Assembly (NCBI GenBank): GCA_009711785.1
Contig: VENA01000003.1
Coordinates: 62,001 to 126,000 of the forward strand
Length of the DNA: 64,000 bases
Origin: Bacillota bacterium
GTDB lineage: Bacteria; Bacillota; Clostridia; Tissierellales; MES13
Direction: 5' to 3'
Of the stretch, positions 15,112 through 43,418 are shown piece after piece. Every line of letters starts with the position of its first letter. Position 1 is the stretch's first letter. Made by a program: the position numbers and the translations under genes. The notes under the pieces are model-generated. The model was not told the origin of the DNA and ran no database searches. It worked only from the letters and a program-made list of their open reading frames with translations.

Positions 15112-16386
15112 TTAATTTTCTAACATTTCAAAGAAAGCTTCTAATCTTGTTTTTATTTGACCAACATCTTGATTACTATAGTCAGTTTCAATCATAATTA
15201 CAGGTATACCCTCTTTATCTAATTCTTCTTTAACTCTCTTATATTCAATTGCATAGGTATTACAAAATGGTAAACTATAATATATAACCCCTTCTGCATT
15301 ATATTCTTTATATAATCTTTTGATATCATCTATTCTTCCATCATTTGGAGTAAAGCAAGCACAGTTTATACCCATATATCTATTACTAAGCTCTTTTAAT
15401 TGTTCATCTAAACTATTACAATCTTCATTGACTGTATTAGTAAAATATCTAGTTCCAATACATGTTTCTTCACAAACTACAGCCCCACCACTTGTTTCTA
15501 TAATATCATGCATTTTCCAGTTAGGTACTGCCTGGGGTGTACCTGTTACTAAAATTCTTTTTGTATCATCATTAAATACATTTACTTCATTTTTAACTCT
15601 TTCTTCTAATTCATCACATAATTCATTTACTTTTTCTGTAAATCTCTTAGGATCATCATAGAAAGCTATTTGTGTTATTAAAAGGGCATCTTTACCACTT
15701 ATAGGTAACTTTTCATTTTTTCTTAAATCATATAATCTTTGTAATGCTTTTCTTTTATCATTTATCATTTTTATAGATTCTTGTAATTTATCCTTAGTTA
15801 CTTTATTACCAGTCATTTTTTCAACTTTATCCTTAAATATTTCTAACTCTTCTTTCCAATGTTTATAATCCTTTTCTCTTTTCATCTGAGGAAGATCCAT
15901 AACATGCATTGGAGTGTACTCTCCTAATATTTCCCACGCTTTCTTTTTACCATCACAAGTTGTTTCCCCAACTAACATATCAGCTGAAGAAAAGTATGGA
16001 CATGTATTACTTATTCTAGCCCCTACAGAAGCTTTAATTAAAGGACAAGTATTTCTTGGTAATTCTTTCTCACCATCAGGTACCCAAAAGTCAGATCCAC
16101 CACAAAGTCCAACTCCTATACCATCTGCAGCAAATACTATCTCATCCGGTACAAAAACACAAAAACTACCAAATACCTTTCCACCTTTTTCTTTAAAATC
16201 TGCTAATTCTTTTATTCTTAGTCCATGAATTTCTGAAACTACAAAATTAAAATAATTCATTCCATCTGGTCTGTTTTCTTGAGAAAGATAAATATCTTCA
16301 TAAAACTCCGGTAATACAGCACACAATTTATCATGTTTTTCAAGATCAATATCTAATGATTTCCACAGTTCTTTATAATCAGCCAT
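15112..16386 (-). CDS. Double-cubane-cluster anaerobic reductase (2-hydroxyacyl-CoA dehydratase D-like)
   Basis: A 424-residue iron-sulfur protein of the HgdB/BcrB superfamily. Conserved cysteines fall in CGGSDFWVPDGEKELPRNTCP, ISNTCPYFSSADMLVGETTCDG, VCEETCIGTRYF and NCACFTPNDGR, the pattern of proteins holding a double-cubane [8Fe-9S] cluster. Such enzymes need an ATP-driven activase (BadF family), usually encoded next door, but none is in this window. The physiological substrate is unknown for most members. A DUF3343 gene follows in the same operon. Two ATGs start the frame; the second (16384-16386) has better spacing from GGGGAG. Confidence 0.87.
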   Translation of the reverse strand: MADYKELWKSLDIDLEKHDKLCAVLPEFYEDIYLSQENRPDGMNYFNFVVSEIHGLRIKELADFKEKGGKVFGSFCVFVPDEIVFAADGIGVGLCGGSDFWVPDGEKELPRNTCPLIKASVGARISNTCPYFSSADMLVGETTCDGKKKAWEILGEYTPMHVMDLPQMKREKDYKHWKEELEIFKDKVEKMTGNKVTKDKLQESIKMINDKRKALQRLYDLRKNEKLPISGKDALLITQIAFYDDPKRFTEKVNELCDELEERVKNEVNVFNDDTKRILVTGTPQAVPNWKMHDIIETSGGAVVCEETCIGTRYFTNTVNEDCNSLDEQLKELSNRYMGINCACFTPNDGRIDDIKRLYKEYNAEGVIYYSLPFCNTYAIEYKRVKEELDKEGIPVIMIETDYSNQDVGQIKTRLEAFFEMLEN

Positions 16387-40182: not shown

Positions 40183-40220
40183 TTTTTTAAATTGGTGAAA
40201 ATATAACTGGAGGTGATCTT

Positions 40221-40442
40221 TTGGAAGCAGGTGTTAGAAATAAATTAATTGGAGAAGTTGAAAACATAAAATACGACGATATGATGGCGCAAGTTGAAAT
40301 GTGACTTGGTGGCTGAGGCAAAAATGCCCCTCATATCACGTCCGTGATGACGCGAGAGAGTCTTGAAAAAGCAAATTTTAAAAAAGGCGATAATATTGAA
40401 GCTTTAGTAAAAGCAATAAATGTTGTCTTTGTTAAAAATTAG
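40221..40442 (+). CDS. Mop/TOBE-domain protein with two in-frame UGA codons (candidate selenoprotein)
   Basis: A 74-codon frame that is broken only by two UGA codons (40302-40304 and 40314-40316) and ends with TAG. With both UGAs read as selenocysteine (U) it gives 73 residues, a complete molbindin/TOBE domain: AGVRNKLIGEVENIKYDDMMAQVEM, then U28-L-G-G-U32-G, then HITSVMTRESLEKANFKKGD and ALVKAINVVFVKN. Ordinary Mop proteins bind molybdate; the U-x3-U loop lies where they have a short strand-turn of six or so residues. The gene has a TTG start with GGAGGTGATC, a promoter and a terminator. DNA between 40285 and 40360 is far richer in G+C than its flanks and folds into hairpins fit for a SECIS element. 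Both interruptions being UGA argues against a pseudogene. Neighbours: DUF362 gene divergent, LigD convergent. Confidence 0.8.
40314..40348 (+). other. Putative bacterial SECIS element
   Basis: Two hairpins follow the UGAs. TGAGG (40314-40318) pairs with CCTCA (40329-40333). Then ATCAC (40335-40339) pairs with GTGAT (40344-40348) around the apical loop GTCC, whose G lies 24 bases after the second UGA and 36 after the first. Bacterial SECIS loops usually begin with G within about 16-37 nt of the UGA, so a single loop could in principle serve both. Confidence 0.55.
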
Positions 40443-40474
40443 AAAAGAGGCATCCTTAAAGATGCCCCTTTTCT
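40443..40474 (+). terminator. Terminator of the TOBE gene
   Basis: AAAAGAGGCATC / GATGCCCCTTTT (one mismatch) followed by T-rich DNA. Confidence 0.85.
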
Positions 40475-40664: not shown

Positions 40665-41546
40665 TTAAATCCTTTTTAAAATATCATCTAAACTTTTATT
40701 ATAATCCTTTTCTAGATTAATAAATAAATCACTATATTCTTTTAAGCGTTTATTAACATTTAATAAATTAAAGTTCTTAGGATCTATACCCTTTTTTAAT
40801 TCACTCCATTTAATAGGCATAGATATACCTGCATATTCATTAGCTCTAGGTGAATATACAGACACTATAGTTTTTTTATTCCAAGTTTGTAAGTAATCAA
40901 AATAAAGTCTGTTATCCCTTTTTTTCTTATTTCTTTCTATAGTTATCCTATTTGAATACTTTTCACTAAAATACAAGCCGAAAAATTTATTTAATTTCCT
41001 AATATCATTATAATTATATTTATTATTAGTAGGGATATATATCTGTAGTCCACTTTTTCCAGAAGTCTTAACATAACTTTTAATCCCTAAAGCTTTTAGA
41101 GTATCATAAATTAAAAGTGAAATCTCAATAACTTCATTGAACTTTTGACCTTTAGATGGATCTAAGTCAAATACTAAATAGTTAGGATTATTATTTTGAT
41201 ATTTATTAAAAGTAACATGAAATTCTAATGAGGCAAGATTTCCAAGCCAGACTAAAGTAGCTCTTTTATTTAAATTAATATAATTACTTCCCTTATATTT
41301 AATTAAATCTATCCAATCTGGAGCATAATTTGGTACTTTCTTTTGATAAAATGATTTGCCCCTTACTCCATCTGGATATCTAATTACTGTTAATATTCTA
41401 TCCTTTGTATGGGGAATTATATAATTAGAAATCTTAATAAGAATATCTATATAATCAAATTTTTTAATACATAATTTAGGCCATAATACTTTATTTAAAT
41501 TTGTTAATTTAACTTTATACCCATCAATATCTATATAATCTTTCAT
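40665..41546 (-). CDS. ligD: LigD polymerase (primase-like) domain, stand-alone
   Basis: 293-residue NHEJ polymerase of the archaeo-eukaryotic primase family: LWPKLCIKKFDYIDILIKIS, RYPDGVRGKSFYQKKVP, catalytic acids in YLVFDLDPS, the KTSGKSGLQIYIP block, and the SVYSPRANEYAGISMPI end. It adds nucleotides (often ribonucleotides) at broken ends. In most bacteria this is fused to the ligase; here it is a separate gene whose ATG overlaps the ligase stop (ATGA). Operon: Ku - ligase - polymerase. Confidence 0.93.
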   Translation of the reverse strand: MKDYIDIDGYKVKLTNLNKVLWPKLCIKKFDYIDILIKISNYIIPHTKDRILTVIRYPDGVRGKSFYQKKVPNYAPDWIDLIKYKGSNYINLNKRATLVWLGNLASLEFHVTFNKYQNNNPNYLVFDLDPSKGQKFNEVIEISLLIYDTLKALGIKSYVKTSGKSGLQIYIPTNNKYNYNDIRKLNKFFGLYFSEKYSNRITIERNKKKRDNRLYFDYLQTWNKKTIVSVYSPRANEYAGISMPIKWSELKKGIDPKNFNLLNVNKRLKEYSDLFINLEKDYNKSLDDILKRI

Positions 41547-42475
41547 AATATAGTTTCCCTTCCTAAAGCCTTTTTATAATCTATATCACTAAATCCAATA
41601 ATCCTTGGATTTCTTAATAAACCATCATATGTCCATTCCATAAATTTAACCCAACAGGTAATAAAAGTTTTAAAATAAATTATAGAACCCTTTAAATTAA
41701 ATTTACTAAAATCTCCACCCTTTAATTTTGGAATATATTCTTTTATAAGATTTTTCTCTTTTTCATTTAAACCAATTGAAGCCTTCCCTATATAATTAAT
41801 TTCTCCTTTTTTATATAATCCTAAAATCAAAGACTTAGGATTATCTTTTTTTAGTTCAACCCCTAAAACAATAGCTAATATCTTTCTTGTTATTTTAATT
41901 TTATACCAATCATTATGTTTCTTTCCAGGTACATATTTACTACTTAAACGTTTAGATACTATACCTTCCCAACTTCTTTTTTTCATTAATTCAAAAAGTT
42001 TTTCACCATTATTAAAATCCTCTGTTATTGCTATCTTTTCATTTTCATTTAATTTTTCATTAAGCTTTTCTTTTCTCTCTATATAGGGAAAATCTCTTAT
42101 ATCATTATTATCAATCATTAACATATCAAATACTATATATTTAATAGGATATTTTTTCATATAGAAATTCAATCTATTTTTATTACTAACCTTTTGTCTT
42201 ATAAGACTATGTTTAAATGAAGGTTTTTCACCTTTGGATAAAACAATTATTTCCCCATCTAATATTGCTTTCTTTCCTTTAAGTAATTTTGAAAGTTCCT
42301 TTAACTCAGGATAATTTTCTGTAGTATTTTTCCCATTTTTAGTAAATACATTTACACTTTTTTTATCAATAAAAGTTATACCTCTTATCCCATCCCATTT
42401 TACTTGATGTATCCATTCTTTATCTTTTATGAAATTTGACTTTAAAATTGGATCCATAGGCTTTATAACTTCCAT
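41543..42475 (-). CDS. ATP-dependent DNA ligase (LigD ligase domain, stand-alone)
   Basis: 310-residue ligase. The nucleotidyl lysine is K26 in VKWDGIRG; other ligase motifs are LDGEIIVL, YIVFDMLMI, EGIVSKRL and WYKIKITRK, followed by an OB domain (IVLGVEL, LGLYKKGEINYIGKA) ending FMEWTYDGLLRNPRIIGF. It seals ends brought together by Ku. No phosphoesterase domain is present. The frame begins with GTG at 42484 within the ribosome site AGGTGG; the ATG at 42473-42475 is the better start. Confidence 0.93.
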   Translation of the reverse strand: MEVIKPMDPILKSNFIKDKEWIHQVKWDGIRGITFIDKKSVNVFTKNGKNTTENYPELKELSKLLKGKKAILDGEIIVLSKGEKPSFKHSLIRQKVSNKNRLNFYMKKYPIKYIVFDMLMIDNNDIRDFPYIERKEKLNEKLNENEKIAITEDFNNGEKLFELMKKRSWEGIVSKRLSSKYVPGKKHNDWYKIKITRKILAIVLGVELKKDNPKSLILGLYKKGEINYIGKASIGLNEKEKNLIKEYIPKLKGGDFSKFNLKGSIIYFKTFITCWVKFMEWTYDGLLRNPRIIGFSDIDYKKALGRETIL

Positions 42476-42484
42476 AGCTTCCAC

Positions 42485-43306
42485 CTAACTTGCAGTATCT
42501 TTTTTGGTTTTCTTTTTATTTGTCTTTTTTTTCTTTTTAGGTTTTGTTTCATCTATACTTGCTTTTAATGCTTCCATTAAGTCTATAACATTTTTTTCTT
42601 TCCCCTTTGGTGCAACTTTAATTTCCTTACCTTCAATTTTTTTATTAATCAATTCCTTTAAAGCCTCTCTATAATCATCTTTATATTTATCTGGCTTAAA
42701 AGAAGCTGTAAGATTATTAATTAATTCAGTTGCCATCTTAAGTTCATTTTTATTAGTATCTATTTTTTCAGGAATATTTGGAACCTGTTCTACAGATCTT
42801 ACCTCATCTGGATAATGAATTGTCTCTAATACAATTAAACCATTATATACCCTAACTGCTGCTAAAGTTTGTTTTGATCTTATTGTTATTTTGGCTATAG
42901 CTATCTTTTTTGTATCTCTCATTGCTTTTCTTAAAATATTATAAGCTTTTTCACCGGTTTCTTGGGGAGATAAATAATATGATTTATCAAAATATATAGG
43001 ATCTATTTCATTTAGATTTACAAAATCTAGTATTTCAACTGCCTTATTTTTATCAGGTTCTATAGATTCTATATCTTTATCTTCAATAATTACATATTTA
43101 CCTGGTTCATATTCATAACCCTTTACTATTTCGTCATATCCTACTTCCTTATTACATGTTGGACACATCTTTTTGTATTTTATTGGCGTATGACATTCCT
43201 TATGTAAGTTTTTAAATCTTACATCCTTATCCTCCGTTGCTGAAAACATACGAACTGGTATATTAACCAATCCAAAACTAATAGAACCTTTCCACATTGT
43301 ATGCAA
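42485..43306 (-). CDS. ku: Ku protein (NHEJ end-binding)
   Basis: 273 residues, first gene of the NHEJ operon. The core reads MHTMWKGSISFGLVNIPVRM, then CHTPIKYKKMCPTCNKEV (a C-x2-C pair), VKGYEYEPGKYVIIEDKDIESI, and LVVLETIHYPDEVRS-like DNA-ring segments; the tail is a lysine-rich extension (KPKKKKKTNKKKTKKD), which in some Ku proteins aids DNA binding. The TTG at 43304-43306 follows AGGAGGTG and yields the usual family start; an earlier GTG lies inside the ribosome site. In spore-formers this operon often serves germinating spores. Confidence 0.95.
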   Translation of the reverse strand: MHTMWKGSISFGLVNIPVRMFSATEDKDVRFKNLHKECHTPIKYKKMCPTCNKEVGYDEIVKGYEYEPGKYVIIEDKDIESIEPDKNKAVEILDFVNLNEIDPIYFDKSYYLSPQETGEKAYNILRKAMRDTKKIAIAKITIRSKQTLAAVRVYNGLIVLETIHYPDEVRSVEQVPNIPEKIDTNKNELKMATELINNLTASFKPDKYKDDYREALKELINKKIEGKEIKVAPKGKEKNVIDLMEALKASIDETKPKKKKKTNKKKTKKDTAS

Positions 43307-43418
43307 AACAAACACCTCCTAGCTAATAGTGTTTGTCTCTCTTTTTATTTTATACAGTTTTATGGATATCTTTGTATTACTATTAATAAAATATAACAAA
43401 GACTAAAGGAGGATTTTA

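Follow-up and report, generated by a model that had tools for sequence, protein, structure and literature searches.

The question raised by the locus at 40221-40442 of the window (the whole 64,000-nucleotide stretch of DNA analysed here, from a member of the Tissierellales) is whether a Mop/TOBE reading frame twice interrupted by UGA encodes a genuine selenoprotein and, if so, what selenocysteine (Sec) might contribute to such a fold. An earlier note, made from the sequence alone, had proposed a selenoprotein here, and direct reading bears out its coordinates, frame, two UGA codons, 73 residues and terminal TAG, together with the ribosome-binding site that it described, a GGAGG motif seven bases 5' of the TTG start. 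The features of the locus are the following:

40209-40218, forward strand: ribosome-binding site GGAGGTGATC, read directly
40221-40442, forward strand: putative Sec-containing Mop/TOBE coding sequence of 73 residues with UGA read through; TTG start, TAG stop (40440-40442)
40302-40304, forward strand: in-frame UGA, predicted Sec28, at the end of strand β2; retained in the U28+U32 and U14+U28 types
40314-40316, forward strand: in-frame UGA, predicted Sec32, in the β2/β3 hairpin; retained in every Sec type except the Syntrophomonas type
40314-40333, forward strand: hairpin 1, just 3' of UGA32; a SECIS candidate that would serve UGA28 on its 5' side
40339-40352, forward strand: hairpin 2, the core SECIS stem-loop CGUC-CGUGAU-GACG, identified by motif conservation, pairing and covariation
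40449-40466, forward strand: terminator-like hairpin of the Rho-independent type with a T-rich tail

The last of these agrees with the terminator that had been claimed; the promoter claimed alongside it is at chance level, with three matches found against 2.6 expected. The G+C-rich character ascribed to the sequence after the UGAs is upheld, as positions 40302-40370 have a G+C content of 49% against 27.7% for the window as a whole, a value reached by only 0.5% of 69-base windows. An Rfam scan of the Mop/TOBE locus returned only chance matches below threshold. The copy in a sister species differs from that of the window at 8 nucleotides, which flank the UGAs on both sides, and all 8 differences are silent.

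The host genome supplies the decoding apparatus whose presence the earlier note had made a test of its proposal. The window's own contig carries selB (398 bits), selA (642 bits), a tRNA-Sec with the anticodon UCA, and a selD gene that itself has an in-frame UGA in its N-terminus (TSGUAAK), indicating that the host is equipped to decode UGA as Sec. Furthermore, selB was recovered in all 34 other carriers of the gene that were tested, as against 157 of the 249 genomes of the order.

Homologues and the position of the UGA codons

A scan of 84,980 species yielded 58 related loci, which belong to Bacillota as far as their titles tell, and a survey of the order Tissierellales found a match in 13 of 249 genomes, those closest in sequence having two UGAs or one. 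The UGA-bearing gene is present across many genera, in dozens of anaerobic Bacillota, and UGA occurs at fixed sites in 42 of the 58 loci, namely at residues 28 and 32, at 32 only, or at 14 and 28. These comprise 18 loci of the U28+U32 type, 16 of a one-Sec type with the predicted Sec at 31-33, six of the U14+U28 or Syntrophomonas type and two partial loci with a U-x3-U pair; the other 16 loci are Sec-free (14 full-length and two fragments). The in-frame stops in 54 homologues are exclusively TGA (66 instances, with no TAA or TAG), as expected by the earlier note for a selenoprotein. Carriers available in culture include Clostridium drakei, C. ljungdahlii (with the U32-only form), Alkaliphilus peptidifermentans and Syntrophomonas wolfei.

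Examination of the homologues at residues 28 and 32 thus recovered UGA at fixed sites, and neither the one-Sec forms nor any of the 14 full-length homologues without Sec has Cys at the Sec positions. Cys homologues at the Sec position are usual, though not obligatory, for bacterial selenoproteins. Their absence from all homologues found suggests that Sec is not a simple upgrade of Cys in this family, and leaves a classical diselenide or dithiol redox motif unsupported. Likewise, the lack of U28 in the 16 one-Sec loci, taken together with the U14+U28 arrangement of the Syntrophomonas type, indicates that U-x3-U is not a conserved core. The existence of Sec-free homologues without Cys further suggests that Sec is dispensable for the basic role of the fold.

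In a tree with Mop outgroups, built from 73 columns and hence without a firm root, the Sec forms group together (97/86) with the Sec-free members outside, and U28 appears to have been lost or gained more than once. The simplest reading of these relationships is that Sec was gained a single time, the alternative being one loss. The U14+U28 type is present twice in Thermosyntropha lipolytica (L088 10884-11084, equivalent to G268 C51:92884-93084, and L061).

The stem-loops downstream of the UGA codons

Bacterial SECIS elements are stem-loops situated shortly after the UGA, with a G in the apical loop. The core hairpin of the present locus has this form: it follows soon after the UGAs, with a G in its apical loop, which begins 26 nt past UGA32 and 38 nt past UGA28. 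The residues TSVMT, which it encodes, are specified in the Sec forms by the codons ACG TCC GTG ATG ACG with almost no exceptions. Synonymous identity at these codons is 0.81-1.00 in the Sec forms, whose later codons have 0.23-0.87; for the same residues (Met aside) the Sec-free homologues have 0.22-0.34. Each Sec gene has the 14-mer CGTCCGTGATGACG exactly once (a genome with two copies of the gene has it twice), and it occurs nowhere else in 20 genomes, with its reversed control having zero occurrences in the same search; one genome with a Sec form (G250) has a one-base variant. It is missing from four of the five tested genomes with Sec-free forms, the fifth (G274) having a Sec copy too. The core stem continues into outer pairs, including one that covaries (CG 22, UA 11, UG 2), and stem pairing amounts to 86% in the Sec forms versus 39% in the Sec-free forms. 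The near-invariance of CGTCCGTGATGACG in the Sec forms, its confinement to this gene and the synonymous decay in the Sec-free homologues together argue for a SECIS, and the foldable element surmised by the earlier note can be equated with this conserved, covarying hairpin. The RNAalifold consensus prefers a short stem, UCAC/GUGA, overlapping that of the SECIS, but the longer stem better matches the contrast between Sec and Sec-free forms.

Hairpin 1 is more stable than its synonymous recodings in the two-Sec genes (mean z -1.41, n=19), as opposed to the one-Sec genes (-0.09) and the Sec-free genes (0.27). This restriction of the excess stability to two-Sec genes suggests that hairpin 1 may serve as the SECIS of UGA28, for which the evidence is moderate across the family and, where the window copy is taken by itself, weak (z -0.39, not significant).

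Three further observations concern individual relatives. The U14+U28 loci (e.g. L056, L064 and L065) show by eye a short hairpin of the form GAY-GNN-GUY, some 12 nt past UGA14, which could be that codon's own SECIS. A UGA-free relative (L014 1501-1626; G180 C172), in a locus cut by the contig end, has Lys at 28 and a gap at 32 and retains ACGTCCGTAATGACG, possibly the remnant of a SECIS in a gene that lost its Sec recently. Another copy (L082 6001-6105; G224) is shortened, with the SECIS core present and UGA at a new place, and is probably a decaying gene.

Taken together, these comparisons make it almost certain that the Mop/TOBE gene encodes a real selenoprotein, whose UGAs would be decoded by SelB and tRNA-Sec at a SECIS hairpin lying within the coding sequence just downstream; the presence of Sec in the protein itself is what we infer from the nucleotide sequence. 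That the gene is a decaying pseudogene with UGAs arising by chance, as the shortened L082 copy with its misplaced UGA might suggest, has a negligible probability and is rejected for the family, given the UGA-only stops at fixed sites across genera, the silent differences from the sister species, the synonymous conservation of the SECIS and the distribution of CGTCCGTGATGACG. The reading of UGA as another amino acid such as Trp, via a changed code or a suppressor, would account equally for a frame that stays open whatever residue UGA encodes, but it merits next to no credence and is rejected in view of the complete Sec system with its tRNA-Sec(UCA) and the SECIS-like behavior of the downstream element.

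Fold and oxyanion site

The read-through protein is recognized by the TOBE profile PF03459 (E 2e-5, over the cut-off) and by the Mop profile TIGR00638 with an E-value of 5e-11 at 42.4 bits, under the 55-bit cut-off that some relatives exceed, for example in Thermosyntropha (66.5 and 60.3 bits). An AlphaFold2 model with a mean pLDDT of 87 shows the strand order of the TOBE domain, and its best matches in the PDB are MopII, the Sporomusa Mop and tungbindin, in keeping with the domain assignment made at the outset. MopII of Clostridium pasteurianum and Mop of Sporomusa ovata are of like size and share the TOBE fold (TM about 0.76-0.83), the R/N at 6-7, the site Lys and the helix serine with the Sec-Mop protein. 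However, they have S-A-R-N or S-G-R-N where the Sec-Mop family has G-V-R-N, and lack both the Sec and the Sec-bearing hairpin insertion predicted in the latter.

Tungbindin (Tub) of Eubacterium limosum (PDB: 9BEB) is, like the Sec-Mop protein, a single TOBE domain, and its buried tungstate site is formed by Ser4, Arg6, Ser40, Lys60 and Ala61 (PMC11980592). Alignment to this type-2 site gives Gly4, Arg6, Thr44, Lys64 and Ala65 in the Sec-Mop protein, four of the five positions thus being kept or conservatively replaced, with Thr44 as the counterpart of Ser40 (PMC11980592). The replacement of Ser4 by Gly throughout the family suggests that the ligand or the affinity may differ. Tub also differs in having no Sec and in its demonstrated function in tungstate storage (PMC11980592).

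In the AlphaFold2 model, Sec28 closes strand 2 and Sec32 lies in the following loop. The register of the hairpin would place residues 14 and 28 on one side, and the U14+U28 and U28+U32 arrangements may therefore be spatially alike.

Genomic context and possible function

About a dozen loci have, within 6 kb or less, genes for YedE, YedF, a Sec-lyase-like enzyme, SelD, or the double-cubane protein (DCCP) with its activase, a set tied to selenium in a 2015 study (PMC5322559). On a rough estimate, chance alone would put the single yedE of a 3-Mb genome into a locus of this size in about 0.4% of cases. The selenium-gene neighbors (YedE, YedF, Sec lyase and SelD) occur beside both Sec and Sec-free members. 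In one locus (L031) the gene has Sec lyase/YedE on one side and, on the other, a tungstate/molybdate ABC operon that encodes WtpC-like, ModB-like and ModA-like proteins and has a Moco riboswitch. The second Thermosyntropha copy is about 1.7 kb from a selenium-dependent molybdenum hydroxylase (SDMH) cluster, with genes for XdhC, YqeB, YqeC/MocA and molybdenum hydroxylase. The yqeB gene, which is a mark of the SDMH enzymes, is present in 18 of the 35 carriers tested, including the window's genome, and C. ljungdahlii (G252) had no yqeB match; YedE is over the cut-off in 21 of 35 and moaA present in 34 of 35, with no moaA match in the window's own assembly (88% complete) and one in the sister species. 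No conserved operon partner was found across the family, nor any selenium or molybdenum transport gene adjoining the Mop/TOBE gene in the window. Most loci are without selenium or molybdenum neighbors, so that the case for a functional link comes from a minority of the lineages.

The best explanation as a whole is probably a Sec-containing molbindin-type protein at the junction of selenium and molybdenum/tungsten metabolism. The product would be a small TOBE/Mop protein of the predicted fold, probably assembling as the usual Mop hexamer and binding an oxyanion at the inter-subunit site, most of whose residues are kept. Its likeliest task would be to buffer or present molybdate or tungstate, or a selenium oxyanion, where the two metabolisms meet, its clients being Sec- or selenium-containing molybdenum/tungsten enzymes. 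The Sec side chains on the face of the β-hairpin would serve as a ligand or nucleophile specific to selenium, and not as one partner of a Cys-like redox couple. The conjunction of such buffering with such a role for Sec is a tentative proposal, to which we assign somewhat less than an even chance.

The strongest competitor holds that the ligand is instead a selenium compound (selenite, selenate or selenophosphate), for which the TOBE site was re-tuned. It would fit the selenium-gene neighbors, found also at Sec-free members, and the Gly in place of Ser4, but is rather unlikely when set against the retention of R6, T44 (for Ser40), K64 and A65 of the oxyanion site (PMC11980592) and the molybdenum/tungsten transporter and SDMH neighbors elsewhere. 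A little less likely still is a selenium-sensing translational switch, in which the UGAs gate synthesis of a molybdenum/tungsten-binding protein and Sec has little chemistry of its own. The shifting Sec position (14, 28 or 31-33) without Cys replacement looks as if the codon outweighs the residue, and selenium-dependent molybdenum hydroxylases and Sec formate dehydrogenases, as potential clients, require both elements; against this, residue 32 is the predicted Sec in all Sec forms except one clade, and many genes use two UGAs, apparently with one hairpin each, which would be costly for a mere switch.

The molbindin-type selenoprotein favored here appears to be new. Among the 119 families of prokaryotic selenoproteins in a 2026 review there is no TOBE/Mop protein, and most of the characterized ones have a thioredoxin-like fold (PMC13188914). 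The known bacterial families with one or two Sec resemble Sec-Mop in UGA decoding, an in-frame SECIS and the number of Sec, but unlike it none has a TOBE/Mop domain (PMC13188914). The openly accessible literature, as distinct from subscription papers, yielded no Sec-containing TOBE/Mop, molbindin or molybdopterin-binding selenoprotein, in agreement with the earlier note, and NCBIfam had no Sec-specific model for the family in June 2026. Annotation pipelines which terminate genes at UGA would overlook or shorten a Sec-Mop gene. Sec-Mop can be regarded as a genuine family of selenoproteins, of which the searched sources contain no description. That it is the first Sec-containing oxyanion-binding Mop/TOBE protein, with Sec gained, by way of no Cys stage, in a Mop subfamily already working with selenium genes, and coupling selenium to molybdate/tungstate handling (e.g. 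in loading selenium-dependent molybdenum hydroxylases or Sec formate dehydrogenases), is conceivable but still the less probable outcome. The family bears on how cells unite selenium with molybdenum or tungsten and offers a concrete gene for study, in that a predicted Sec-bearing protein of molybdenum/tungsten-binding type lies near YqeB/YqeC, YedE/YedF and molybdenum/tungsten transport genes in some lineages; the selenoproteome would also gain a fold in which Sec seemingly does not replace Cys.

Some other genes in these neighborhoods may be recorded. In L031 (9391-11402), two genes, for proteins of 245 and 277 aa, flank the Moco riboswitch; their products have no NCBIfam match at the threshold used and are possibly molybdenum/tungsten handling proteins. 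Adjoining the Mop/TOBE gene in the window, on the reverse strand at 40665-43315, inspection of the sequence suggests a trio of LigD-polymerase-like, ATP-ligase-like and Ku-like genes of bacterial end joining. At 15121 on the reverse strand, the window also encodes a homologue of the double-cubane-cluster reductase (39% identity over 387 aa), which recurs beside the family elsewhere.
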